Shown here: piece after piece, positions 1 to 22,967 of the stretch | How positions within the stretch are numbered: the stretch's first letter is position 1 | How the letters are laid out: the number at the start of each line of letters is the position of its first letter | Virus record (IMG/VR): IMGVR_UViG_3300045950_000327 | Coordinates: 1 to 22,967 of that record | Length of the DNA: 22,967 nt | Strand: one strand, 5' to 3' | DNA from: a virus | Translations under genes and position numbers: made by a program | Notes under the pieces: generated by a model | The model's input: the letters and a program-made list of their open reading frames with translations, nothing else | Told to the model about the DNA's origin: nothing | Database searches by the model: none

Positions 1-90
1 GCCGAGTGGCTGATCGAGAAGAACGGCTATCTCAGCCCGCTCGACGCGCGCGCCGCACGCCTCAACACCAACCTCAGGCGCGCCGCATAG
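1..90 (+). CDS. C-terminal end of an unidentified protein (5' truncated by window)
   Basis: Reading frame 1 is open from the first base and gives 29 residues ending in a TAG at 88-90. Third codon positions are almost all G or C, matching the codon use of the confident genes in this window, so this is probably the genuine end of a gene that starts upstream. The peptide ends in a basic, Ala/Arg-rich tail (NLRRAA). It is too short for me to assign a family. It lies immediately upstream of a multicopper-oxidase remnant in another frame, which suggests that a recombination junction lies just after it. Confidence 0.4.
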   Translation, partial: AEWLIEKNGYLSPLDARAARLNTNLRRAA

Positions 91-125
91 TGCAACCGCG
101 TGTCCAGGAAACCGGGTGCGATACA

Positions 126-344
126 ATGGCACATCCGATGCACCTTCACGGTCATGTCTTCCAGGTGGTCGGCTTTGGGTCACAACGGTTTGTGGGGCCC
201 GTTCGGGATACCATTCACGTCCCAGCGATGGGACGTGTCTCGATCGCCTTCGACACCATTAATGCCGGGCAATGGATGTTCCACTGCCATCACATGCCAC
301 ACTTGGCCGTGGGCATGATGACCGAGCTTCGCTACGTCGGGTAG
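126..344 (+). pseudogene. Multicopper oxidase C-terminal remnant
   Basis: The 72-residue frame starting at an internal ATG carries both copper-ligand signatures of the last cupredoxin domain of multicopper oxidases. These are HPMHLHGH near its start and HCHHMPHLAVGMM near its end, the latter providing the HCH tripeptide plus the downstream His and Met axial ligand. Family members are normally 400-600 residues with two or three cupredoxin domains and a signal peptide. Here everything before the HPxHLHGH motif is gone, and the residues just upstream do not resemble the family. The ATG has no convincing ribosome site. I read it as a gene fragment left by recombination at about position 100-125. 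Base composition is visibly less GC-rich than in the phage genes. Confidence 0.75.
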
Positions 345-858: not shown

Positions 859-2685
859 TCAGGGGATTCGACGCTTTCTGGCCGCGACCGAAAGCGTCGC
901 GGCGCCAAGATCGAAGGTAGCGGCGGAGATGTTCCTGGCCACGACGCGAACGGTGTTGTTGGACCAAGCTGTCGCGTCGAGCTCGATAAAGCGCGTCGAC
1001 GAGGCCAGCGCCGCATAGGCGAGGTCGCCCTGACGCGCGCCGTTGACGGTGACGTCGAGCAGGCTGGTTGCCCCAGGTGCCAGTGACGGCAGGTCCCACG
1101 GCACCTCCGCTGCGAACTCCCGCTGCCCGACCGGCAGCGCGGGTGTGCCGCACAGCAGCGCCGGTGCCGCCTCCGGCAGACCATAGAGCCGCATCGCCTC
1201 GACCTCGATCTGCCCGTCGAAGCCGACGATGCCGATCTGCGCAAAGGCCACGCCGGCGCCGAGCCGCACCGTCATGCGCTTGTTCAGCGAGGCATCGGCC
1301 ATCGCAGCCCCGCCGGTCCAGGCCTTGGACGGGATGTTCCACAGCAGCGTCGTGATGGAGGCCAGCGCGTCGCCGGCGACGTTCTCCCGCACATTCATCG
1401 CCGCGTCGAAGCAGCGCACGAAGATCCGACCGCCGTCCGCGCCACCAACCAGCGAATGCACCAGCGCGAACTCCTTCGCCTGGCTGCACTCCACAACGAA
1501 GGCGAGCCCCCGCTGCGCCTCGAGCAGCAGCCCGCGGGCGGTCGCCGTGATGTCGTCCAGCCCGTTGAAAGACAGCCCGGCGAGCGTCGTGGCGCTGGTC
1601 GTGGACGTGGCGACCACCGCCAGCCCCGCGACGCCGATCTCCGTCGCGCTGTGCCGGAAGGACTGGGCCCGAACATTCGGGACGGTGCCCAGCAGCCGCA
1701 GATGTCGCGACGCCGGCGCGCGATGGCGGTTGATCACCGCATTGCCGCAGCGGGTTGCGGTCGCCGTGTAGTCGATGCCGACCTGGTAGGTGTTGGACCA
1801 GGCGACCTCATACTCACAGTCCTGCGCCGCGGCGGTGTGCCGGGCGACAACCGGCGAGCAGGCCTCCATGCGCAGCGCCCGGCCGATGATCGCCGAGCCG
1901 CTGGTCTGGTTGAGGAAGGGGATCGCCACATTGGGGTCGAGCTGGCGCAGTTCGAAGTTCGGCGCGTCAAAGACGTGCCGGTTGTGGTTGTTGTAGGCAC
2001 CGTCCGCCTTGGACAGCCGGATCCCGAAGCGATCGATGGTGGGATTGATCCCGGTCGCGATGGCGAAGTGCCCACCATAGTAGCGGATGGAGGTGTTCCA
2101 GGCGGTGGCGGTGGCGCAGTGGATGTCGAGGCCGATGCGGTTGTTGAGGATGCGGCCCAGGTGGAAGGTGCTGTCCTCGACGCCACGGCCGTCGCCTAGG
2201 GTGCGCATGCCGATGGTGAAGCCCGAGACCAACCGCAGCTCGACCACCGAGGCATCGATGTTGCGCACCAGGATGCCGATATCGGCCTCGTCGAGCCAGT
2301 CCGACTGGGTCTGCCGTATGACCTGCAGTCCGGCATACTGCTTTTCGCCGTTGCGGACGGTGCCGCCATCGCCGAGGGTCAGCACGGTGGCCGCTGCGGT
2401 GCCGGTGTACCGAATGATGCCATGCATGATCAGGCCGCGGGCGCCGCCACCGAGGACGACACCGGCGGAGACGTTCCAGGTGCCGGGCGGGATGACGGCG
2501 AACTTCTGATCGGCCGCCGCGCGGTCGAACGCCGCTTGGATGGCGGCGCGATCGTCGGCGACGCCGTCGCCGAGGCCGCCGAAATCGGAGGGCAGCACGG
2601 TCTCGCGGTCGCGCAGGTACTTGGCGAGGTCGGTCTTGCTGACTGCGGTGTCGAGCACCAGCAGGTCGTCGATGCGAGCGGGCAT
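859..2685 (-). CDS. Phage tail-spike-like protein with pectate-lyase/beta-helix domain
   Basis: The protein has 608 residues. Near residues 34-75 it carries the entry signature of the pectate-lyase-3/GH-type beta-helix family: DFGGLGDGVADDRAAIQAAF followed by VIPPGTWNV. Asn/Gly-rich stretches of alternating hydrophobics (for example IGMRTLGDGRGVEDSTFHLG) continue to about residue 330, consistent with a right-handed parallel beta-helix. The remaining ~280 residues are beta-rich with no motif I recognise, and end in a basic tail. In tailed phages such proteins are trimeric spikes that bind or cleave surface polysaccharide. Whether this one is an enzyme is not visible. It starts 16 bases after the tail-tip fragment ends, on the same strand, the normal position for a receptor-binding protein. 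It appears intact although its upstream partner is truncated. Confidence 0.75.
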   Translation of the reverse strand: MPARIDDLLVLDTAVSKTDLAKYLRDRETVLPSDFGGLGDGVADDRAAIQAAFDRAAADQKFAVIPPGTWNVSAGVVLGGGARGLIMHGIIRYTGTAAATVLTLGDGGTVRNGEKQYAGLQVIRQTQSDWLDEADIGILVRNIDASVVELRLVSGFTIGMRTLGDGRGVEDSTFHLGRILNNRIGLDIHCATATAWNTSIRYYGGHFAIATGINPTIDRFGIRLSKADGAYNNHNRHVFDAPNFELRQLDPNVAIPFLNQTSGSAIIGRALRMEACSPVVARHTAAAQDCEYEVAWSNTYQVGIDYTATATRCGNAVINRHRAPASRHLRLLGTVPNVRAQSFRHSATEIGVAGLAVVATSTTSATTLAGLSFNGLDDITATARGLLLEAQRGLAFVVECSQAKEFALVHSLVGGADGGRIFVRCFDAAMNVRENVAGDALASITTLLWNIPSKAWTGGAAMADASLNKRMTVRLGAGVAFAQIGIVGFDGQIEVEAMRLYGLPEAAPALLCGTPALPVGQREFAAEVPWDLPSLAPGATSLLDVTVNGARQGDLAYAALASSTRFIELDATAWSNNTVRVVARNISAATFDLGAATLSVAARKRRIP

Positions 2686-2701: not shown

Positions 2702-3487
2702 TCAGAGCGCAGTGGCGGAGACCGGTCCGGTCAGGGCCGAGACGTTGCCCTCGGCCGAGACGGCGCGCAGCCAGTACCAGCGGGTGTCGCCCACGGCCAA
2801 GCCGGTGCGGTCCCAAAAGAGGCTGGTCGGCTCCTCGGGCAGCTTGGTCGCCGCGCTGAGGCTGCTGCTGGTCGCCTCGAACACCTGCAGCCGCACAGCG
2901 TCGGCCGGGAAGCCGCCGGAGAGACGGATGCCGCCCACGATGCCGGTGGCCGTGGGCGCCGCCACCGCCGCGGGGACGAGGGCCTGCCGCCAGCCCGACA
3001 CCGCCCCACTGCGCGCCACCGCGCGCACCCGGAAGCCGGTCGGCTCGGCGGTGGGGATGGCGGCCGCGGTGGCGCCCAGCGACCCGCCGTAGCCCTGCCA
3101 GGCCGCCACGGAGGCGGGGAGGAACTCGACCTGGTAGCCGGCGAGGTGCGAGGAGCCGACCACCGTCCAGGTCACGGCCAGGACGGCGAAGACCGTCGTC
3201 GTCGGCGTCTCCACCGTGATGCTGACCGGGGCGGCGATGACGCCCGGGTTGGGCAGCACCACGGCGGGGTTGGCTCCGGTGGCGCGCTCATCGACCGCCG
3301 GGTTCCAGTCCCACACCGCGGTGTCCTCCTCCTCCAGGGTGAGGTCGACCCCGCCCTCGGCGGCGAGCGACCAGGCGGTGACCCGCGCCGGGAAGGGGGT
3401 GAGGCGGTCGAGGGCGACCGTCGCCGCCTCCCAAGGCCGATGGGGTTGGCCGGTGATGGCGGCACCAGCAGGAAGCGCAAGAAGCAT
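2702..3487 (-). pseudogene. Tail-tip / host-specificity protein, C-terminal part only
   Basis: From about position 3457 leftward the frame encodes a protein typical of the end of phage tail-tip (gpJ-like) proteins. It begins with a segment reading GQPHRPWEAATVALDRLTPF, followed by fibronectin-III-like repeats (VTWTVVGSSHLAGYQVEF near the middle, LFWDRTGLAVGDTRWYWLRA near the end). Complete proteins of this class are usually over 1,000 residues and start with baseplate-hub domains; only ~255 remain. The upstream end does not continue into tail-tip sequence but runs into the portal gene in another frame. An in-frame ATG at 3487 could still allow translation, but a working tail tip is not expected. 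It is followed directly by the tail-spike gene. Confidence 0.7.
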
Positions 3488-3843
3488 TCGCCGCTCTCGA
3501 CCACCGCCCGCATCACCAGCGCCTGCAGCCCGTAGAGGTCGAGCCGCCCCTCCGCATCGCAGGCGGTGCTCTCCGCCCAGCGCTGCCAGGTGCGGCCGTG
3601 CGCGTCGTCCGGCCAGCGGGTGGTGATCCCCGCGCCAATGGCATTCCCGGTCCACAGGTCGACGATGCGGCTGGCGTAGGGATCGTTGCGGACGGCGTCG
3701 CGGGCACGGCGGGCGACCGTAGCCGCAGCCATGCCCACCTCGGCATTGGCGCTGCCGCCGGATGGCGCCCAGGCGGAGCCTCGGTGGTCCTGCGCCGCGG
3801 CATAGCCGCGCAGGGCGTTCCAGGCATCCCGGAGCCGGCCCAT
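3172..3843 (-). pseudogene. Lambda-type phage portal protein, N-terminal part, frame-fused to tail DNA
   Basis: The ATG at 3843 overlaps the gpW stop (TGATG), so the start is firm; a GTG three bases earlier is the alternative. The first ~128 residues match the lambda/gpB portal family: ARDAVRNDPYASRIVDLWTG, then a GAGITTRWPDD stretch and VVESGECFLRF. Portals form the dodecameric DNA gate of the capsid and are about 500 residues long. Homology stops near 3455-3470. Beyond that the frame is only the wrong-frame reading of the tail-tip gene (Arg/Pro/Ser-rich), ending at 3172. The product would be a ~223-residue chimera without the portal core, so it should be non-functional. The break marks a large deletion of the head and tail genes. 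Confidence 0.75.
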
Positions 3844-4079
3844 CACCTGCTTCCCTCGCGTGAGAAGCTGGCGAAGGTCACGCCGGGACGGCGCGCCGCC
3901 GAAATCTCCGCGCCGCGCAGCACCACCAGCGCCCGGCCGAGCTCATCGAGGCTCCGATACTCGACGGTGCGCCCGTCGAAGGTCACGCGCGTGGTGCCGC
4001 CCGTATACGCCGCGGCCAGCACTGCCGCGCGGCTGCTGGCCGGCTGCGCCAGCGCCCAAGCCAGAACAGCGGGGTCCAT
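3843..4079 (-). CDS. gpW-like head-tail joining protein
   Basis: The 78-residue protein contains the gpW core (RVTFDGRTVEYRSLDELGRA). In lambda, gpW is a 68-residue protein that plugs the portal after packaging and prepares the head for tail attachment. The ATG at 4079 overlaps the preceding stop by one base (TGATG), which fixes the start; longer in-frame extensions upstream are only shadows. It lies directly before the portal gene, as in lambda (order A-W-B), which supports the identification. It looks intact, but its structural partner, the portal, is truncated. Confidence 0.8.
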   Translation of the reverse strand: MDPAVLAWALAQPASSRAAVLAAAYTGGTTRVTFDGRTVEYRSLDELGRALVVLRGAEISAARRPGVTFASFSREGSR

Positions 4080-4687
4080 CAGGCGGCCCGCAGCGTCGGC
4101 AGCGGCGTCGCTGCGTTCACGAGATACGACAGCCCGGTGGGCGGGTTCGCCATGATCGGCACACCGGCCTGATGCGTCAGCGCCGCGAAGAACCCGTTCT
4201 CGCTGCCGGTCGTGCCACCCCCGGCGCCGCCATCCGCCGCGGCCGAGCCGAGCAACAGCGTGTTCCCCCCGCTGAACGCCTGGGTGCTGGTACCGCGCAC
4301 CGAGGGCACCCCGGAGAAGCACAGCAGCAACCACCAGACCCCGGCCGAGATCCAGCGCGGCTGCGCGAAGGGGCAGAGCGCATTGCCGGCGGAGGTGGTG
4401 TCGGCGTCCGGTATCGGCTCCTCGATAAGGCGCCCGGGATGCCCCGTTCCATCGTCGGCAGCCAAGGCCATGCGCAGGAAGCCAGCGGCGCCCGTCGTCA
4501 CGCTCACCGCCATGGCCGAGAATAGCCCCGGCCGCGCGAGGACATAGGGCGCGCAGTACAGCCGGTTCGCCGTCATCGCGACGGCGCCGCCGACGGCGCG
4601 CGCATGCTGCGAGGCATAGAACCGCCCCGACACGTAGGGCAGCATCGCCGACGCCGGCGGCAGGTAGTGCTGAAACAGCGCGGTCAT
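4079..4687 (-). CDS. Probable phage virion protein (202 aa)
   Basis: I do not recognise a named family. The 202-residue protein is rich in Ala, Gly, Thr and small beta-strand stretches, without charged helices or nucleotide-binding motifs. It begins MTALFQHYLPPASAMLPYVS, and the Gly/Ser-rich middle and aromatic patches (WISAGVWWLLLCFSG) suggest a beta-structured virion or decoration protein. The start overlaps the previous gene by four bases (ATGA) and its stop overlaps gpW by one, so it is translationally coupled within the packaging operon. Lambda has nothing between its terminase and gpW genes, so this gene and its 118-residue neighbour are additions peculiar to this phage lineage. Confidence 0.6.
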   Translation of the reverse strand: MTALFQHYLPPASAMLPYVSGRFYASQHARAVGGAVAMTANRLYCAPYVLARPGLFSAMAVSVTTGAAGFLRMALAADDGTGHPGRLIEEPIPDADTTSAGNALCPFAQPRWISAGVWWLLLCFSGVPSVRGTSTQAFSGGNTLLLGSAAADGGAGGGTTGSENGFFAALTHQAGVPIMANPPTGLSYLVNAATPLPTLRAA

Positions 4688-5037
4688 GCGAGGGGCCGGA
4701 TGCCGAGGGTGAGCAGCCGCTCCGCGGCCTGATTCACCGGCGCGGCGGCGAGGCCCGAGCGCAGCCGCAGCCAGCGCCAGCCGAGCAGCAGCGTGGGCGG
4801 CAGCGTGAGGGCGCGGCCTGCGGCGACCATCAGCACCACCTCATTGCCGAGGTGGTCGTAAAGGTCCGCCCAGCCCGATGGCTCGCCCTCGTCGAGCGAG
4901 CCCTGCAGGGTGAGCGGGGCGTCGGTCCAGGCGGCGGGCAGCAGCAGCAGGCAGACACCGTAGCCGACGCTGGCAACGGGTCCGCTCAGCGCCTGGCCGG
5001 CGGCGATGCTGGTGCGCACCGGGACGATGGCGGTCAT
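4684..5037 (-). CDS. Probable phage virion-associated protein (117 aa)
   Basis: Two adjacent ATGs occur at 5040 and 5037. The second lies seven bases after GGAG and is preferred. The protein is beta-rich with regular hydrophobic alternation (SVGYGVCLLLLPAAW, then ALTLPPTLLLGWRWLRLRSG), resembling a single beta-sandwich domain such as those of small capsid or tail accessory proteins. The C-terminus (AAPVNQAAERLLTLG) is helical. I cannot name a family. It starts 12 bases after the large terminase stop and overlaps the next gene by four bases, so it belongs to the packaging operon. A role together with the 202-residue protein is likely but is inferred only from coupling. Confidence 0.6.
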   Translation of the reverse strand: MTAIVPVRTSIAAGQALSGPVASVGYGVCLLLLPAAWTDAPLTLQGSLDEGEPSGWADLYDHLGNEVVLMVAAGRALTLPPTLLLGWRWLRLRSGLAAAPVNQAAERLLTLGIRPLA

Positions 5038-5051
5038 CATGATCTCCAGGT

Positions 5052-7010
5052 TCAGCGCAGCCAGCCACCACGCGGGGCAAGCCAGGCGCGAGGGCGGGTC
5101 GGCGGTGCAGCGGCGGACGATGTCTGCGCCGCCGCGGAGGATGATTCGTCGGCCGGCAGCGACAGCGCATCCGCCATCCGCGCCCAGCGTCCCTCGCCCC
5201 AGCCATCCATCCCCAGGGCGGCCGCGGCGGCGCGCGCATAGACGCGGCAGTCCAGCGCCTCATTGCGTTCGCGGGTCTTCACCCATTCTAGCCGGCGAAA
5301 GCCATTGCGACCGGCGCGCGCAACCAGCTGCTCGGCGGTGAGCTGGCGGCAGAACTCCTCGCCCGCGGCGTGCAACGGCAGGTGCACGAAGCCGGCCGGG
5401 AAGGGATCCCCACTTTCCTCGGTCGGGCGGTCGAGCTTGAGCCAGCCATAGGTCTCGGCCTTGAGAAAGGACGAGCCCACCGGCCAGACCTTCAGCCCAC
5501 CGAGCTTGCGCCCGTTCCGCCGCACCTCCGTCGCGGCAGGCTGTCCGACCGCGGCGCGCAGCCCATCCTGGCCCTTGACCGCGATGGCGCGTCCCGCACC
5601 GGCCCGCCGCACGAAGGCGTAGACCTCGGCGGTGGTCATGCCGTCGCCGCTGTCGATCGCCGCCATGGCGATGGGCAGGCGATGGCCGCTGGCGTGCCGC
5701 CAGGTCTCACCCAGCAGCCGCCGCAACTCCTCCCAGACCGCCGCCTCGAACGGGTTCCCCACCAGAACGCGGTGCTCGACCAGCCAGGATTGGCGGTCCT
5801 CTCCCCAGGCCCAGATGCTGGCCTCGAGGCGGTCGCGCTGCACGTCGACGCCGGCGGTGAGCAGCAGCCCGCCCAGCGGGACGGCGCCGACCGGCCAATG
5901 CTCGCGGCGGTCATAGAGCCGCTGCCAGTCCGGCGCCTCGCCCGCCTCCTGCCAGGTCTCGCCGAGGACGGTGTTGCGGAACGTCTTGATGGCACGGTCG
6001 TCGCCCTGCGCGGCGAGCCAGAGCCGGGCGATTTCCGACCAGGGCATCCAGCCGGGCGGCGAGTAGAGTGCCGAGATGTGGAAGCCGACCGCGTGGGGAT
6101 CTGTCGGCTCCGCGGTCGCTCGCCAGACACCGCCGGCCAGCATCGCCGCCTTGTGCTGTTCCCCGATCGCCTGGTCGCAGGCCTCGCAGAGGTAGCGGGT
6201 GGTGTCGGGTGCTCCCTCGTCCCAGACGAGGCGCTCGAAGCGCAGCCACTGCATCGCGCCGCAATGCGGGCACGGCACGAAGTAGCGCCGCTGGTCGGTG
6301 GCGAGATACTCCCGTTCGATCCGCGACAGGCCGGCGATGGTCGGCGTCGAGACCAGCAGCATCTTGCGCCGCCAGCCGAAGGTCCGCGCGCGGGCCTCGG
6401 CCAGCGCGATCGGATCGCCCTCGCCCTCGACGTCGCCGGGATAGGCGTCGATCTCGTCCAGGAACAGGAAGCGCGCCGACATGGAGCGCAGGCCGACCGC
6501 GCTGTTCGCACCGGTCATCACCAGTTGGCCGCCGGGGAACTCCTTGCTGAGCTGGCGGTTGCCACTGTCTCGTGACCGCGCTGGCGCGACCCGCTCGCGG
6601 ATTGCCGGCGTCTCCTCCACCAGCGGGTCGATACGCTGGTCCGAGAAGCGCTTGGCCAGTTCGGTGGTTGGCTGCACCGCGAGCATGGGCCCGGGCGCGT
6701 GGTGGATCACATAGCCGATCCAGTTGTTGCCGCACTCGGTGCCGCCGACCTGGGCGCCTTTCATGAACACGACACGCCGCGCCGCATGGGCCGGCGACAA
6801 AGCATCCATGATCTCGCGCAGATAGGGCGTGCGCGCCGTGCGCCAGGGTCCCGGCTCGGCGGAGCCCCGTGAGCCAAGCTGGCGATGCCGATCCGCCCAT
6901 TCTGAGACCAGCAGCGCAGGCTCGGGCGCCATGCCGTCGCGCCAGGCCTGCAGGATCTCGGCGTCGCCGTCGAAGCGGCCGAGTTCCTCCAGCAGATGCT
7001 CGCCCGCCAT
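5052..7010 (-). CDS. Phage terminase large subunit, GpA family
   Basis: This is the ATP-driven packaging motor and nuclease. At 652 residues it is close to lambda gpA (641). An ATPase P-loop-like segment (FMKGAQVGGTECGNN) lies at about residues 82-96 and a Walker B FLFLDEID at 181-188. A treble-clef-like cysteine set (CPHC at 247-250, CEAC at 275-278) follows. The nuclease half begins with GVDVQRDRLEASIW near 387, whose Asp is the expected metal ligand. The ATG at 7010 overlaps the small-subunit stop (TGATG), supporting this start over a GTG at 7013. The C-terminal ~35 residues are a Ser/Ala-rich tail. The gene appears intact although the particle genes downstream are deleted. Confidence 0.92.
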   Translation of the reverse strand: MAGEHLLEELGRFDGDAEILQAWRDGMAPEPALLVSEWADRHRQLGSRGSAEPGPWRTARTPYLREIMDALSPAHAARRVVFMKGAQVGGTECGNNWIGYVIHHAPGPMLAVQPTTELAKRFSDQRIDPLVEETPAIRERVAPARSRDSGNRQLSKEFPGGQLVMTGANSAVGLRSMSARFLFLDEIDAYPGDVEGEGDPIALAEARARTFGWRRKMLLVSTPTIAGLSRIEREYLATDQRRYFVPCPHCGAMQWLRFERLVWDEGAPDTTRYLCEACDQAIGEQHKAAMLAGGVWRATAEPTDPHAVGFHISALYSPPGWMPWSEIARLWLAAQGDDRAIKTFRNTVLGETWQEAGEAPDWQRLYDRREHWPVGAVPLGGLLLTAGVDVQRDRLEASIWAWGEDRQSWLVEHRVLVGNPFEAAVWEELRRLLGETWRHASGHRLPIAMAAIDSGDGMTTAEVYAFVRRAGAGRAIAVKGQDGLRAAVGQPAATEVRRNGRKLGGLKVWPVGSSFLKAETYGWLKLDRPTEESGDPFPAGFVHLPLHAAGEEFCRQLTAEQLVARAGRNGFRRLEWVKTRERNEALDCRVYARAAAAALGMDGWGEGRWARMADALSLPADESSSAAAQTSSAAAPPTRPRAWLAPRGGWLR

Positions 7011-7606
7011 CACGACACCTGCACGCGGACGTCGTGGCGCGCGGCGAGATGCGCGCGCAGGCGGGTGTCCATCATGGTCTGCAGCTGGTGCACGTCGACG
7101 CCGAGCTCGGCCGCCATCTCGGCGGCGACACGGGCGGGCCAGGCGAGGATGGCGTCGCGTTCCTCCTTGGCGAGGCGGTGCACCAGCAGCAGGGCGCGTG
7201 CCTTATCGACCAGCTTGCCTTTGCGTTCGTCGAGCCGCAGCCGCCGCTCCTGCGCCTTGAGTACCTCGTTCGCGGTCCGCGCATCGTGGAAGGTGTTCTG
7301 GGCGGCGCGCGGCAGCGGCTCCGGCACCGGCGCGGAGATCGGTGCGGGCGACGGTGCTAGCGCTTGAGGTCGCGGCGCCGGCGGCATCGTCGGCGACGCC
7401 ACACGAGCCAGCGTCGCTGTCTTGCGGGTCGGGTCGCTGCTGTCCGCCAGCCGGGCGCGGACCTTCTCAATGTCCCAGCTGCCGTCGGCCTCGGGCGCGA
7501 TTCGTCCGGCGCGTTGAGCTTTCTGCAGGGCGGTATGAGAGATGCCGAGGCGGCGTGCCACCTCGCGCTGCGAGGCCACGCGGCCCGGCGGCGCGGTGGC
7601 GATCAT
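7010..7606 (-). CDS. Phage terminase small subunit (Nu1-like)
   Basis: The 198-residue protein has an N-terminal helix-turn-helix (VASQREVARRLGISHTALQK, residues ~10-29) followed by a Pro/Ala-rich linker (~75-105). A helical C-terminal part (NEVLKAQERRLRLDERKGKL, then EERDAILAWPARVAAEMAAE) fits the DNA-recognition plus oligomerisation architecture of Nu1-type small terminases. Small subunits bind the packaging site and load the large subunit. Here the gene immediately precedes, and overlaps, the large subunit gene, the standard order. The ATG at 7606 has only a weak GAGGGG upstream. It is the first gene of the leftward packaging operon, so its promoter should lie in the 175-bp gap before the divergent DUF3489 gene. 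Confidence 0.8.
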   Translation of the reverse strand: MIATAPPGRVASQREVARRLGISHTALQKAQRAGRIAPEADGSWDIEKVRARLADSSDPTRKTATLARVASPTMPPAPRPQALAPSPAPISAPVPEPLPRAAQNTFHDARTANEVLKAQERRLRLDERKGKLVDKARALLLVHRLAKEERDAILAWPARVAAEMAAELGVDVHQLQTMMDTRLRAHLAARHDVRVQVS

Positions 7607-9221: not shown

Positions 9222-10490
9222 TTATGCTGCGCACGCCACCCCACGAGCGGCAGCGACATCGTCGAATACCCGATCCTCGCCGGCCAGCACCGCCGCCTTG
9301 CCCGTCAGCGCCTGCCAGCGCAGAACGGCCACGTCGACGTAGCGCGGATCGAGCTCCATCGCGGCGCAGATGCGGCCCGTGGTCTCGGCTGCGATGATGG
9401 TGCTGCCGCTGCCGCAGAAGGGCTCATAGATGGATTCGCCGACCGCGCTGTTGTTGACCATCGGCCGGCGCATGCACTCGACCGGCTTCTGCGTGCCGTG
9501 CACGGTGGCCGCATCCTCATCGCCGCCGTTGGAGATCGCCCACAGCGTCGCCTGGTCGCGCGCACCCTGCCAATGGCCCGTCGCGCCTTTTCGCACGGCA
9601 TAGAGGCAGGGCTCGTGCTGCCAATGGTAGTCCCCGCGCCCCAGCACAAAGCGCGATTTCGCCCAAACGATCTGGCTCCGCACCGCGAAGCCGGCCGCCT
9701 CGAGGCTCTCGATGACGGTGCGCGCATGCACGCCCGCATGCCAGACATAGGCGACGTCACCAGGGAATAGGGCCCAGGCGGCGCGCCAATCGGCACGATC
9801 GTCATTCGCCACCTTGCCGGTGCGCATCGTCGCCGAGACGCCGGCCTCGTTCCGCCATTCCGGATCATAGTTCACGCCATAGGGCGGGTCGGTCACCATC
9901 AGATGCGGCCGCGCGCCGTCGAGCAGCCGAGCAACATCTGACGCGCTGGTGCTGTCGCCGCAGAGCAGGCGATGCGGTCCGAGCAGCCAGAGGTCACCGG
10001 GGCGCGTGACGGGCGCTACCGGTGGCTCCGGCGCCGGAGCGTCGGGATCGCCACCCGCCGTCCCTGGTGCCTCGCGCGCCGCATCGACCAGCAGTCGATC
10101 CAGCATCGCCCCATCGAAGCCGATCAGCCCGAGATCGAACTCCTCGGTGCGCAATGCGCGCAGCTCGGCTGCCAGGAGGCTCTCGTCCCAGGTCGAATTC
10201 AGCGCCAGCTGGTTGTCCGCGAGGCGATAGGCTCGCACCTGCGCTTCGGTGAGATGGCCGAGGCGGATGGCCGGGATCTCCTGCAGCCCGAGCGCCTTCG
10301 CAGCGAGAACCCGGCCGTGCCCTGCGATCAGGACCCCGGCGTCGTCGACCAGCACCGGCACGTTGAAGCCGAATTCGGCGATCGAGGCGGCGAGTTGCGC
10401 CACCTGCTCGGTCGGGTGCAGCCGGGCGTTCGCCGCATAGGGCGCGAGGGCGGCAACCGGCATCGTCTCGACGCGAAGGTCAGGCTGCAT
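9222..10490 (-). CDS. ParB-N / DNA N6-adenine methyltransferase fusion (DPPY type)
   Basis: The 422-residue protein has an N-terminal ParB/Srx-like domain (residues ~5-100, with IAGHGRVLAAKALGL at 55-69) and a conserved helical connector to ~135. A Pro/Ala linker (~140-163) leads to a beta-class amino-methyltransferase. Motif IV DPPYGVNYDPEW starts at 201 and the AdoMet-binding motif I EPFCGSGST is at 356-364, with the target-recognition part between them. DPPY is usual for N6-adenine enzymes. No restriction endonuclease is adjacent, so it is an orphan. Fusions of this kind are common in alphaproteobacterial prophages, where they methylate phage or host DNA. It overlaps the preceding paralogue by 11 bases and probably shares its transcript. 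The ParB-like part may steer the enzyme to particular DNA sites. Confidence 0.88.
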   Translation of the reverse strand: MQPDLRVETMPVAALAPYAANARLHPTEQVAQLAASIAEFGFNVPVLVDDAGVLIAGHGRVLAAKALGLQEIPAIRLGHLTEAQVRAYRLADNQLALNSTWDESLLAAELRALRTEEFDLGLIGFDGAMLDRLLVDAAREAPGTAGGDPDAPAPEPPVAPVTRPGDLWLLGPHRLLCGDSTSASDVARLLDGARPHLMVTDPPYGVNYDPEWRNEAGVSATMRTGKVANDDRADWRAAWALFPGDVAYVWHAGVHARTVIESLEAAGFAVRSQIVWAKSRFVLGRGDYHWQHEPCLYAVRKGATGHWQGARDQATLWAISNGGDEDAATVHGTQKPVECMRRPMVNNSAVGESIYEPFCGSGSTIIAAETTGRICAAMELDPRYVDVAVLRWQALTGKAAVLAGEDRVFDDVAAARGVACAA

Positions 10491-11949
10491 TCGCCGTGAC
10501 CTCCGGTGCCCGCTCGGCGGCGACCGCGTCGTAGCCGCGTCCGTCGCCGTCCAGCGTGACGCTTAGCTCGGGGAACAGCACGCGGTAGCGCGCGATGGCG
10601 AGGTCGATATAGGCAGGCGCGAGTTCGATCGCCCGCACGTTCCGGCCCGTCCGCTGCCCCGCGAGGATGGTGGTGCCGGACCCGGCGAAGGGCTCGAACA
10701 CGGCGTCACCGAGATTGGCGTAGGTCTGCAGGAGCAGTTCTGGCAGCGCCACCGGGAACACTGCCGGATGCTCGGTCTCGATCCCCCGGCCCTTGTGCCG
10801 CGTGATGCGCAGCACGGCGTCCGGGATGCGCATCTCCTGCACCGGCAGCCCGGCATGGGTGTAGGCCTTTACCTCGCCATCCGCGGCGCGCAGCCCGCTG
10901 CCCTTGTTCTCCGTCCCCGCCCATTTGCAGGGGATGATCTTGTTCGGCTGGCGGGACTTCCGGTTGAAGTGGAACACCAGCTCGAAGGCCGGCGCGAGGC
11001 GGCCGTTCCAGTCGCCCGGCAGTCCGGGGCCCTGGTCCCAGGCGTACAGCCCGAAGCGCCGCCAGCCCTGCGCGCGCATCCATTCCGCCCAGCCCTGCCA
11101 ATAGGGCTGCCATTCCCCATCGCGGTGGATCAGGCCCAGGTTGACCAGCGCCTGGCCGTCCTCCGCGAGGATGGCGGGAAGGTGCTGGAACACCCCCTGC
11201 ATCAGCGCGTCCCAATCCGAGATACCGCCGGTGGTGTAGGCGCGCTGGTTGCCATAGGGCGGGGAGGTGAGGAGCAGCGTCGCACGCTCGTCGCCGATGA
11301 CGCGGGCGACCGCCGCAGGGTCAGTGCTGTCGCCACAGAGCAGGCGATGCTCGCCGAGCAACCAGAGGTCGCCGGGGCGGGTGACGACCTGACGCGGCGC
11401 TTCGGGTTCCGCGTCGGCGGGATCCGGCTCGCTATCGGTCCCCGGATCGGCGGCCGGGTTGCCAGCGGCAGGCTCGGCACCGCGGGCAACCGCCGGGGTG
11501 GCAACGTTGCCAGTTTCGGTTTCCAGTCCCGCCAGCAGCCGGTCGATCTCGGTGCCATCGAAGCCGGTGAGCGCAAGGTCGATGCTGCCCATCTCCTGCA
11601 GCTTGGCGACCTCGGCGGCGAGCAGCGCCTCGTCCCAGCCAGCATTCAGCGCAATGCGGTTGTCCGCCAGCCGATAGGCGGCCTTCTGGGCTTCTGTCAG
11701 GCCGGCGCGGACGATGGTGGGGACGACGTCGAGGCCGAGCGACTGCGCGGCCAGCAACCGACCGTGGCCAGCGATGATCTCGCCGCGCTCGTCGACCAGC
11801 ACGGGCGCGACGAACCCGAACTCGAGGATGCTCGCCGCGATCTGCGCCACCTGCTCGGCGGAATGCGTGCGCGCATTCCCGGTATAGGGCAGCAGCGAGG
11901 CGACCGCGCGCGCCTCAACGGCGCTCGCAGCCCATGGGGTCTGGAGCAT
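10480..11949 (-). CDS. ParB-N / DNA methyltransferase fusion (SPPY type, probable N4-cytosine)
   Basis: The 489-residue protein is a clear paralogue of the next gene. Its ParB-like domain (IAGHGRLLAAQSLGL at 59-73) and connector (AYRLADNRIALNAGWDEALL at 91-110) align without gaps. The linker is longer and acidic (~140-186). The catalytic motif is TSPPYG (228-233) and the AdoMet motif is EPFAGSGTT (419-427), so it is also beta-class, but SPPY favours N4-cytosine methylation. The target region between these motifs is unlike that of its neighbour, implying a different recognition sequence. It is the first gene of the three-gene leftward set (this gene, the DPPY paralogue, DUF1810). Three TGGCAAC repeats lie 39-62 bases upstream of its start. 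Confidence 0.88.
   Translation of the reverse strand: MLQTPWAASAVEARAVASLLPYTGNARTHSAEQVAQIAASILEFGFVAPVLVDERGEIIAGHGRLLAAQSLGLDVVPTIVRAGLTEAQKAAYRLADNRIALNAGWDEALLAAEVAKLQEMGSIDLALTGFDGTEIDRLLAGLETETGNVATPAVARGAEPAAGNPAADPGTDSEPDPADAEPEAPRQVVTRPGDLWLLGEHRLLCGDSTDPAAVARVIGDERATLLLTSPPYGNQRAYTTGGISDWDALMQGVFQHLPAILAEDGQALVNLGLIHRDGEWQPYWQGWAEWMRAQGWRRFGLYAWDQGPGLPGDWNGRLAPAFELVFHFNRKSRQPNKIIPCKWAGTENKGSGLRAADGEVKAYTHAGLPVQEMRIPDAVLRITRHKGRGIETEHPAVFPVALPELLLQTYANLGDAVFEPFAGSGTTILAGQRTGRNVRAIELAPAYIDLAIARYRVLFPELSVTLDGDGRGYDAVAAERAPEVTANAA
11499..11512. repeat. 14-bp perfect palindrome inside the SPPY methyltransferase gene
   Basis: TGGCAACGTTGCCA reads identically on both strands and lies in the linker-coding part of the gene, where amino-acid constraint is low. 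Its half-site TGGCAAC is the same heptamer that is repeated three times just upstream of the gene and also occurs in inverse orientation at 11458-11464. It may be a secondary operator, a recognition site, or chance. Confidence 0.35.
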
Positions 11950-12560: not shown

Positions 12561-13490
12561 TCAGCGCCGTGCGCGCTTGGTGGGTCCGCCGCCCTGTACC
12601 AGGCTGCCGCGCGCCGCCGCCAGCACCTCCTCCGTCAGCGCCGCCAGCAGCCCCGCGCCGAGCCGCGCATGCTGCCAGTGCAGCGCGACATCCAGCCGTT
12701 GGCCGGGCACCAGCTCCACCAGCCGGCCGGCCGCTAGGTGCTCAGCGACGAGCGGCAGCGGGTTCATCGCCCAGCCAAGGCCTACCAGGACTCCATCCAG
12801 GAAGCCCTGCGTGGCGGGCACCCAGTGCACCGGCGCCTCGAGCGACGCGATCCCCAGCGCCTCCCGCGCCCAGCGGGCCTGCAGCCCGTCGCGCCGGTCG
12901 AAGCGCAGCATCGGCGCCCGCGCCAGTGCGCCCGGCTCCACCCCGCCGGGCAAGTGGCGGCGCAGGAAAGCGGGGCTCGCCACCGCGGCGTAGCGCAGCG
13001 CGCCGAGCGGGACGGTGCGGCAGCCCTGGACCGACGCGGGATCGGCCGTCACCGCGGCCAGCACCGCCCCGGAGCGCAGGCGGTCGGCGGTGTGGCCCTC
13101 ATCCTCAACCACAAGGTCGAGCTGCGCGCCGCTGCGCTCCGCGAAGCGGGCGGCGGCGGGCAGGAACCAGGTGCCGAGGCTGTCGGCGTTCACCGCGACG
13201 CGCAGGGCGGCCGGGCCATGTAACCCGGCGGCGAGGGCGGGCATCGCAGCAGCAAGCTCGCCCTCCAGCAGCCGCACCTGCTCGGCATGGGCACAGAGCT
13301 TCGCCCCGGCTTCGGTCGGCACCGGCGGCTGGCCGCGCACCACCAGCACGGCGCCCAGCCGCTCCTCCAGCGCGCGGACGCGCTGCGACACGGCGGAGGG
13401 CGTGACGCCGAGAACCGCGGCCGCGCGCTCGAAGCCACCTTCGCGGATGACGGCCGCAAGCGCGGCCAAGGCAGGGTAGTCGAGGGACAT
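12561..13490 (-). CDS. LysR-family regulator, ArgP/LysG type
   Basis: The 309-residue protein has an N-terminal winged helix of the ArgP (IciA)/LysG subfamily (LDYPALAALAAVIREGGFER, then AAAVLGVTPSAVSQRVRALE at ~22-41). An effector-binding domain follows, with typical elements (LRVAVNADSLGTWFLPAAAR, then GCRTVPLGALRYAAVASPAF). The ATG at 13490 begins MSLDYP, where family members normally start; an ATG two codons upstream is possible. ArgP/LysG regulators sense lysine or arginine and activate a divergent LysE/ArgO exporter, which is exactly the neighbour here, 69 bases away. The ~20 C-terminal residues are a basic extension. It is not a phage family and is probably cargo or inserted host DNA. 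Confidence 0.88.
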   Translation of the reverse strand: MSLDYPALAALAAVIREGGFERAAAVLGVTPSAVSQRVRALEERLGAVLVVRGQPPVPTEAGAKLCAHAEQVRLLEGELAAAMPALAAGLHGPAALRVAVNADSLGTWFLPAAARFAERSGAQLDLVVEDEGHTADRLRSGAVLAAVTADPASVQGCRTVPLGALRYAAVASPAFLRRHLPGGVEPGALARAPMLRFDRRDGLQARWAREALGIASLEAPVHWVPATQGFLDGVLVGLGWAMNPLPLVAEHLAAGRLVELVPGQRLDVALHWQHARLGAGLLAALTEEVLAAARGSLVQGGGPTKRARR

Positions 13491-13559
13491 AAGCATGGCT
13501 TCATATCTGTTAGAAAAATAAGCTAGCCTACATCGCCGGGGAATGCCAGGACAACCGCC
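13491..13559. promoter_or_regulatory. Divergent lysR-lysE promoter region
   Basis: The 69-bp gap between the divergent regulator and exporter genes contains an AT-rich core (CATATCTGTTAGAAAAATAA at about 13502-13521) that stands out in GC-rich surroundings. By analogy with lysG-lysE and argP-argO pairs it should hold the exporter promoter, the regulator promoter and the LysR-type binding site. The exporter has AGGA eight bases before its ATG. I could not define a clean T-N11-A dyad, so the operator itself is not placed. Confidence 0.6.
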
Positions 13560-14183
13560 ATGATCGACCCCGGCGCCTTCCTCAACGGCTTCGCCCTCTC
13601 CGCCGCGCTGATCGTCGCGATCGGCGCCCAGAACGCCTTCGTCCTGCGCCAGGGGCTGCGGCGCGAGCATGTCGGGCCGGTCGTGGCCTTCTGCGCGCTA
13701 GCCGACGTTGCGCTGATGGGAGCCGGCGTTGCAGGCCTCGGCGCGGCGCTCGATCGGCTGCCGGGGCTGGCGGCAGCGCTGACACTGGGCGGCGCGCTCT
13801 TCCTCGGCTGGTACGGGATCTCGGCGCTGCGCCGCGCCGCCCGTCCGGCCAAGGGCCTCGACGCGGAGGGACGCGGGGAGGCGCTGTCGCTCGGCGCGGC
13901 GCTGGCGCGCACCGCCGGGTTCACTCTACTGAACCCGCATGTCTATCTCGACACCGTGCTCCTGGTCGGCGTGGTGGGTGCATCGCAGCCGTCTGGGGGG
14001 CAGCCCGCATTCGTGGCCGGCGCGGGGCTGGCCAGCGCGCTTTGGTTCGCGCTTCTCGGCTATGGTGCGCGGCTACTTGCGCCGCTGTTCCGCCGGCCCG
14101 CCGCTTGGCGCCTGCTGGACGGGCTAGTTGGCGCGACGATGCTGGCGCTCGCTGCCGGCCTGGTCGCGCATGGGCTGGGCTGA
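13560..14183 (+). CDS. LysE/ArgO-family amino-acid exporter
   Basis: The 207-residue inner-membrane protein has the family's usual length and six predicted hydrophobic segments. The N-terminal signature GFALSAALIVAIGAQNAFVL contains the conserved GAQNAFVLRQG motif of LysE/ArgO (RhtB/LysE superfamily). The central NPHVYLDTVLLVG matches the conserved NPHxYLD motif. Members export basic amino acids, typically lysine or arginine, using the proton gradient. Pairing with a divergent ArgP/LysG-type regulator supports induction by the exported amino acid. Codon use is like that of the phage genes. It converges on the phage genes to the right with a strong inverted repeat between them. Exact substrate is not visible in the sequence. 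Confidence 0.9.
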   Translation: MIDPGAFLNGFALSAALIVAIGAQNAFVLRQGLRREHVGPVVAFCALADVALMGAGVAGLGAALDRLPGLAAALTLGGALFLGWYGISALRRAARPAKGLDAEGRGEALSLGAALARTAGFTLLNPHVYLDTVLLVGVVGASQPSGGQPAFVAGAGLASALWFALLGYGARLLAPLFRRPAAWRLLDGLVGATMLALAAGLVAHGLG

Positions 14184-16027: not shown

Positions 16028-17494
16028 TCACGCGCCCTCCTCTGACGGGGAGGGCCGGCGGTAGCGCCATTCGCGAGCGACGCCGTCCTTGGCGGAGCCG
16101 GTCGTCTTGTAGCGCTCCCACCTCTTCGCCTTGAGGTAGGCGCCCACGCGCATCTGGTCGCCCTTCGTCCACTTCGCCGCTTCGATGCCGAGTGCCTGCT
16201 CCAGCACCTCGCCGATCGAGACGTCGGTCAGTGGCTTTGCCCTCGGCACGAAGCGCTCCTGCCAGTCCTCGAAGTGTCCGACGCCGACATTCACCGGCCT
16301 GCGCTCGGAGACGAGCCAGCGCTCGATCCGCGCGTCCCAGGCGTCGCCCAGGTAGCGCGCCTCCTGCGCCGCACTCGCTTCGGCGACGAGCGCGCGATCC
16401 TCGATCCACCAGGGCGCCCGGGCGCGATAGCGCGCGACGGCTTCGGCCCAGAGCTGGTCGCGATCGCGCCGTAGCCCGTCGAGGTCGATGTCGCCGCAGC
16501 GGAGCGGCCAGAAGCGCCGGTTGCCGGTCTCGTCGCGCAGATAGGTGTCCGGGTTCACCGTGCCGGCGAAGACGCATTGCCGCGGGACAGTGACCACGTA
16601 GCGTTCGTAGGGCGGCCGGTATCGGTCCGTGGTGCGGCTCAAGAAGGCCTTGATGCGCGACACGTCCGCTTGGCCGATGGCGTCGAGCTCCGCCATCTCG
16701 ATGATCCAGATGCCGCGCATCTGCTGCGCCGCGTCCTTCGAGCCGAGCTCGGCGAGCTCGTCGGTGAACCAGGGCTCGGAGGCCAGCACCTTCAGGGCGG
16801 TCGACTTGCGGATGCCCTGCGGCCCTTCCAGGATCAGCATGTGGTCGGCCTTGCAGCCGGGCTGCATGATCCGCGCCACGGCGGAGACCATCCACAGCGC
16901 GGCCATGCTGCGGTGGAGCGGCGTGTCCTCGGCGCCGAGATAGGCGACGGCCCAGGTGTCGAGGCGCGGCGTGCCGTCCCAGGCCAGCGCTTCGAGGTAG
17001 TCGCGCACCGGGTGGATGCGGATGTTGCGTGACACGGCGACGACGCTGCGGCCGACCACCACGGGCGGGACATTGATCTCGTGCCGCTGCAGCCATTCGG
17101 CGCAGCGCACGTCGTCGGCCTCGCCCCACGGGCGGGGGTGCACCGTGCCTGCCGGATCCCAGGGCAGCGCCCGAGCGACGATGATCTCCTGGCTGAATTC
17201 GTCGAACATGAGCGCGCCCGTGAAGGCAGCGTCGAGCGACAGTGCCGTGATGACATTGGCCTCGTTGCGCTCCGGCGCGCCGCCAGCGTCGATCCGCAGC
17301 AGTGAGGCCCAGGGCGGCCGGACGGGCGCGCGGCGGACGTCACCGGTGGCGTTCATGCGCTTGGCGGCCTCGACCGCCTCGCGCGCTTCGGCCTGTAGCA
17401 GGGCGAGGTGCTCGGCCGGCAGCGCGATGATCTCGCCCACCGGCAGGTGGCGCAGGCTGTCGAGGGTGGGGCGGTTCAGTGCGGGGGTGAGCAT
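16028..17494 (-). CDS. VapE-family replicative helicase/ATPase
   Basis: The 488-residue protein matches the virulence-associated E (VapE) family, SF3-like ATPases used for replication by prophages and phage satellites. The Walker A motif GPQGIRKST is at 224-232 and a Walker B-like IWIIEMAELD at 262-271. The signature GTVNPDTYLRDETGNRRFWP (311-330) carries the family's conserved Arg pair. The N-terminal ~130 residues are a less conserved adaptor and the C-terminal ~80 look like a winged-helix tail (MRVGAYLKAKRWERYKTTG). The ATG at 17494 overlaps the previous stop (TGATG). No separate primase is visible, so it probably recruits host primase or acts at an origin, with the adjacent repeat array the natural candidate. 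Confidence 0.9.
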   Translation of the reverse strand: MLTPALNRPTLDSLRHLPVGEIIALPAEHLALLQAEAREAVEAAKRMNATGDVRRAPVRPPWASLLRIDAGGAPERNEANVITALSLDAAFTGALMFDEFSQEIIVARALPWDPAGTVHPRPWGEADDVRCAEWLQRHEINVPPVVVGRSVVAVSRNIRIHPVRDYLEALAWDGTPRLDTWAVAYLGAEDTPLHRSMAALWMVSAVARIMQPGCKADHMLILEGPQGIRKSTALKVLASEPWFTDELAELGSKDAAQQMRGIWIIEMAELDAIGQADVSRIKAFLSRTTDRYRPPYERYVVTVPRQCVFAGTVNPDTYLRDETGNRRFWPLRCGDIDLDGLRRDRDQLWAEAVARYRARAPWWIEDRALVAEASAAQEARYLGDAWDARIERWLVSERRPVNVGVGHFEDWQERFVPRAKPLTDVSIGEVLEQALGIEAAKWTKGDQMRVGAYLKAKRWERYKTTGSAKDGVAREWRYRRPSPSEEGA

Positions 17495-17844
17495 CAGGCC
17501 GCCTCCGCCAGGATGCGCGGGAGGAGCAGCGGCGAGATCCGCCGCGGCCGGCGTCGCGCGATGGCAACGTAGTCGTAGTCCTCGAAGCCGCGGCGGCGCT
17601 GCACGAGATGGACATGGCCCGCCTCGGCGAGCTTCAGCGCACGGCTCGACAGCCGCGCGACACGGACGCGCTCGTCCGCCGACAGCAGGTTCAGGCTCGG
17701 GCAGGTCTCCCGCGCGAGCGCGCCGCGGTGGTAGATGATGGCATCGCCGCTGGCGGCGGTGCCGAGCCATGCGCAGAACGCCGCCTCAGTGAGCGGCGCC
17801 GGCGGTGGGATGGGGATCGGAGAGCAGGTGGCCATGACCAGCAT
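17494..17844 (-). CDS. Small phage protein upstream of vapE (116 aa)
   Basis: The reading frame ends in a one-base overlap with the vapE start, indicating translational coupling. After a Pro-rich N-terminus the core reads AAFCAWLGTAASGDAIIYHR, then ARETCPSLNLLSADERVRVA and HVHLVQRRRGFEDYDYVAI. This helix-rich protein with a beta-hairpin-like end is, to my knowledge, typical of hypothetical proteins next to phage replication genes. Two starts are possible, ATG at 17844 or 17835, and neither has a strong ribosome site. The gene begins 24 bases after the sigma-like gene stops. No function is assigned; a helicase accessory role is a guess from position. Confidence 0.65.
   Translation of the reverse strand: MLVMATCSPIPIPPPAPLTEAAFCAWLGTAASGDAIIYHRGALARETCPSLNLLSADERVRVARLSSRALKLAEAGHVHLVQRRRGFEDYDYVAIARRRPRRISPLLLPRILAEAA

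Positions 17845-21617: not shown

Positions 21618-21621
<4 letters not shown>
21103..21621 (+). CDS. DUF2924 domain-containing protein
   Basis: The 172-residue protein shows the DUF2924 family pattern. An N-terminal helical part (VLSRLAALQTATAAELKDQW, then RALFGKEPPPFNRPYLVSRL, then AYRVQELAYGG) leads into a compact beta-rich C-terminus (RLIREYDGVQHVVTVRADDF, YEGRPYRSLSAIARHITGTH, WNGWVFFGL). The C-terminal part resembles the small DNA-binding folds that follow recombinases. Family members almost always precede a large serine recombinase gene in alphaproteobacterial islands and phages, as here, where the two genes overlap by four bases (ATGA). A role as recombination directionality or accessory factor is a reasonable inference but not established. 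GAGGGAG upstream of the ATG supports the start. Confidence 0.88.

Positions 21622-22967
<1,346 letters not shown>

Follow-up and report, generated by a model that had tools for sequence, protein, structure and literature searches.

At one point in the window, by which we mean the whole 22,967-nucleotide stretch of the virus record analyzed here, the beginning of a portal gene meets the end of a tail-tip gene, and the question is what brought the two together: a deletion in a prophage, a fault of assembly, or reduction to an element that is kept in this form. The explanation that we favor, with a probability of about 0.86, is that the window holds a defective prophage from a Roseomonadaceae bacterium and that this prophage arose, by one internal deletion of ~16-17 kb, from a lambda-type prophage of ~43 kb. 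Its lambda-type character is seen in a gpA-type terminase gene that adjoins gpW and lambda-family portal genes (PF05876, PF20454, phrog_2545, and PF05136), and its chromosomal location is seen at one end, where the 3' end of a host multicopper oxidase gene (3..344, plus strand; PF07731, E=1.5e-23) represents flanking chromosome that matches, and likewise adjoins, the prophage on contig 29 of Neoroseomonas eburnea; the other end lies off the record.

Both genes at the joint are on the minus strand and both are incomplete. To the right, only the N-terminal ~136 codons of the portal gene are present (3439..3846; PF05136, E=1.8e-29), and they are 94-95% identical to the portal of N. alba and N. 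soli; the open reading frame that contains them (3846..3172) matches PF05136 over residues 22-127 only, as well as the portal family phrog_21. To the left, only the C-terminal ~245 codons of a J-like tail-tip gene are present (2702..3434), with no internal stop and with 90% identity to intact J. The open reading frame ending at 2702 matches phrog_31, "central tail fiber J" (E=2e-16), at profile positions 812-1061, and the piece that was kept is the C-terminal third of a protein that has 668 residues in full-length form in N. soli. The initial annotation had recognized a lambda-type portal start and, in another frame, a tail-tip end; both identities stand, although the portal piece is about 136 residues long rather than the ~128 given there. 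The two reading frames differ at the joint (the distance 3846-3430 is not divisible by 3), which rules out a portal-J fusion protein read in one frame.

The initial annotation had also placed the junction within 3430-3490 and had proposed to fix it by comparison with intact related prophages and to look for microhomology there. Side-by-side comparison with N. soli and N. eburnea puts the joint at 3434..3439 (minus strand), where homology to the relatives breaks. Homology to N. soli extends up to window position 3434 (88.4%) and resumes from 3439 (87.3%), with 17,127 bp between the two parts in N. soli; for N. eburnea contig 29 the corresponding positions are 3436 (89.0%) and 3438 (87.5%), with 15.9 kb between them, and in most related loci the homology stops at 3434. 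The sequences at this point are CCCATCGGCCTTGGGAGGCGGCG in the window, CCGATCGGCCTGCGCCTG in the N. soli portal, and CTGCGGCCGTGGGAGGCGGCG in the N. soli J. The portal and J sides overlap there by the microhomology CGGCC, or CGGCCT depending on the alignment ends (5-6 bp); when points of the portal and J genes are joined at random by computation, 1.3% of the joints have an overlap of 5 bp or more, and 0.5% have one of 6 bp or more. When 299 family genomes were searched with a 301-bp DNA query over the joint, practically all strong matches broke at query positions 157/152, and none of the 299 contained the joint contiguously. A 40-mer over the joint was absent from all other searchable IMG/VR contigs; records very near the window were possibly left out of both collections.

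What is missing from the window can be read from the intact relatives in N. soli and N. eburnea, which are colinear with it on both sides of the joint (87-89% identity) but have 17.1 kb and 15.9 kb, respectively, of additional sequence at exactly that point. In N. soli, this block begins with the rest of the portal gene and a fused protease-major head protein (phrog_4523, E=7e-162). It also contains an endolysin (phrog_465) and an Rz-like spanin (phrog_456), a conserved 102-residue protein, a tail terminator (phrog_4204), a minor tail protein (phrog_290), a tail assembly chaperone (phrog_313), a tape measure (phrog_339), and a distal tail protein (phrog_1302), and it ends with the first ~420 residues of J. 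The initial annotation had foreseen the loss of the remaining portal, protease, capsid, connector, and tail genes, and these are indeed what the intact relatives carry between the two sides, together with the start of J; to be added are that J is still represented by its C-terminal ~245 residues and that, with endolysin and spanin inside the block, lysis was lost along with head and tail. The 15-25 kb that it had assumed between the two sides compares with 16-17 kb, at the low end of the guess. Protein searches of the 299 genomes with the portal part and the J part yielded 26 portal/J pairs on the same contig and strand: 25 are 13.9-21.5 kb apart, and the 26th, a decayed copy, spans 11.0 kb. 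For the exact size of the deletion, relatives with 87-89% identity are the only guide. Capsid, connector, tail, and tape measure genes and a complete J, all present in the colinear relatives, are absent from the window, and with this 16-17 kb block and its essential virion genes gone, the prophage would, judging from its gene content, be unable alone to build a capsid or tail or to lyse the cell.

On either side of the block, the tail spike, the gpW-like gene, and the terminase large subunit are intact; the initial annotation had stated that terminase, gpW, and tail-spike genes were spared. The spike (859..2685, minus strand; 608 residues) matches tail-spike PHROGs and PF12708 and is 93% identical to its N. 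soli counterpart over the full length. The gpW-like head-tail adaptor (3843..4079, minus strand) matches phrog_2545 (E=2.4e-10) at residues 105-159 of open reading frame 4334..3843, and homology in relatives starts at 4079-4081. Two genes for proteins of 202 residues (4079..4687, minus strand, between terminase and gpW) and 118 residues (4684..5040, minus strand) have no Pfam or PHROG match and are shared with only some relatives. The terminase large subunit (5052..7013, minus strand; PF05876, PF20454) shows 95-98% identity to its counterparts in prophages of N. alba, N. soli, N. eburnea (98%), and Roseomonas rosulenta, and the small subunit follows at 7010..7606 (minus strand; phrog_57, E=2.3e-24). 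In Rubritepida and Caldovatus relatives, the large subunit has an in-frame insertion of ~364 residues after residue 91 (AQVGG) in four loci (L028, L030, L027, and L102; for example, L028:8636-10297). With its LAGLIDADG domain and THN/T end, the insertion is probably an intein, with proline where the first residue is usually cysteine or serine; the terminase of the window does not have it. Further away are a gene for a VapE-like replication protein (16028..17770, minus strand; PF05272, E=2.3e-85) and a large serine recombinase, the integrase, which runs off the record end (21618..22967, plus strand; PF00239, PF07508) and matches those of N. eburnea contig 29 and N. soli.

Several other genes of the prophage deserve mention. 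Two adjacent, mutually similar genes for proteins with ParB and N6/N4 DNA methyltransferase domains (9222-11949) are conserved in this prophage family, and a DUF1810 gene (PF08837; 8751-9179) is found in only some relatives. Neither of two divergent genes at 12561-14183, one for a LysR-type regulator and the other for a LysE-type amino-acid exporter, was detected by tblastn in ~280 related loci, one of which (L107) has just 125 bp there; the pair looks like a cargo insertion of host origin.

Taken together, the favored history would start from a ~43-kb lambda-type prophage like that of N. eburnea contig 29, in which portal codon ~136 would have been joined to J codon ~424, most likely by end joining at the 5-6 bp of microhomology, and in a single step rather than several. 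The event would also be recent relative to the split of this prophage from its relatives, because neither the portal nor the J fragment contains stop codons and the dN/dS values of both are near those of intact copies. For the portal, the fragment gives 0.05-0.16 versus 0.00-0.15 for intact copies; for J, the fragment gives 0.15-0.18 versus 0.00-0.14 for intact pairs, a slight increase that is based on few pairs and fits recent relaxation. The remainder of the prophage still looks to be under purifying selection, which likewise suggests a young deletion.

Losses from the same block are found in other members of the family. In the prophage on N. terrae contig 3 the block is partly deleted and, as in the window, the right end of the deletion is inside J; its left end differs, with the end of the capsid gene joined to J residue ~377. 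The prophage on N. eburnea contig 36 likewise has a right end inside J, but what is gone there is a portion of the protease-capsid gene together with the lysis genes and the majority of the tail genes, and the capsid region with the 102-residue gene is joined to J residue ~568. On G068 contig 13, tape measure residue ~500 is joined to J residue ~514, and the IMG/VR contigs L235 and L280 carry further variants. That the right ends fall inside J is partly a consequence of searching with the J C-terminus. Because the breakpoints differ, these deletions are independent losses. L235 (IMGVR_UViG_3300001918_000039), where J residue 96 comes closely after endolysin residue ~39, with a chaperone copy in inverted orientation downstream, is another rearranged copy of the head-lysis-tail block. 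Portal fragments of 53-62 residues (G164, G026, and G169) were rejected as further truncations, as they sit at contig ends. In F. bella, on G190 contig 3, and on G116 contig 144, the portal breaks off at residue ~148 or ~234 and unrelated genes come next; these are separate remnants that do not have the joint of the window. The F. bella end lies 18 bp further than that of the window, but two cases are too few to make this part of the portal gene a hot spot for breaks.

Could the joint be an artefact in which two parts of an intact prophage were connected, either in a chimeric molecule of the library or by an error of scaffolding? What counts against the deletion is that the joint is known from the assembly of one record alone; moreover, genomes of this family hold several such prophages and isolate contigs often end inside the portal or J gene, which points to fragile assemblies. 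On the other hand, misassembly induced by repeats is unlikely, because portal and J, in N. soli as in N. eburnea, have no exact 18-mer in common on which a k-mer assembler could join them. A chimeric molecule or scaffold error is a possible source; however, the joint is seamless, with no run of N, and isolate contigs carry independent deletions of the same block. We therefore regard an artefact as improbable.

Alternatively, the deleted prophage could be a satellite-like or domesticated element, kept through packaging by co-resident intact relatives or through a benefit to the host (for example, from the spike, the methyltransferases, or exclusion). The retention of integrase, replication protein, both terminase subunits, and spike would suit this, as would the presence of deleted and intact relatives side by side in other genomes, such as N. 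eburnea with contigs 36 and 29. However, the retained genes are what a random deletion of recent date would be expected to leave, and no capsid-resizing or hijacking gene was seen. P4- or PICI-type elements have a compact gene set that is conserved as a unit in many hosts, whereas this joint was absent from the 299 family genomes and the other IMG/VR contigs searched and the deletions of relatives have other ends. We consider this reading highly improbable, and we give even less credence to its extension to the whole family, by which these prophages would repeatedly shed the head-lysis-tail block, keep integrase, replication, terminase, and spike genes, and form a nascent satellite lineage with derivatives packaged by intact co-residents.

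Among known elements, the closest intact relatives of the defective prophage are those of N. eburnea and N. soli. The one on N. eburnea LMG 31228 contig 29 is colinear with almost all of the window, from 22947 to 126, apart from the missing block and replaced early genes, and has the same flanking multicopper oxidase and the same type of serine integrase; it differs in having the 15.9-kb head-lysis-tail block and another, larger early region. The prophage on N. soli LMG 31231 contig 10 is colinear in the terminase-portal and J-spike segments (87-88%) and has the 17.1-kb block. The nearest isolated phages are those of Rhodobacter capsulatus (e.g., RcKemmy), with a terminase large subunit 57% identical; the J fragment matched no isolated phage in the phage collection searched, and no isolated phage there is a close member of this prophage family. 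No match to the window was found in E. coli genomes, which is what one would expect of a prophage with high GC content from an alphaproteobacterium.

The loss of head, tail, and lysis genes is a common way for prophages to die, and the window is ordinary in kind; it stands out as a clear, base-resolved example of what is probably inactivation in one step. Furthermore, the independently deleted and intact copies in the same genomes are convenient for asking whether such remnants only decay or are still mobilized. According to Khan, Burmeister and Wahl (2020, PMC7744054), the losses of incomplete prophages fall preferentially on portal, capsid, lysis, and terminase genes, and tail-fibre and integrase genes are overrepresented in them. 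Like these cryptic prophages, the window has lost structural, portal, and lysis genes and has kept genes of the integrase and tail-fibre type; unlike them, it has one clean joint rather than the marks of gradual loss, and it keeps its terminase, as expected from a single recent deletion.
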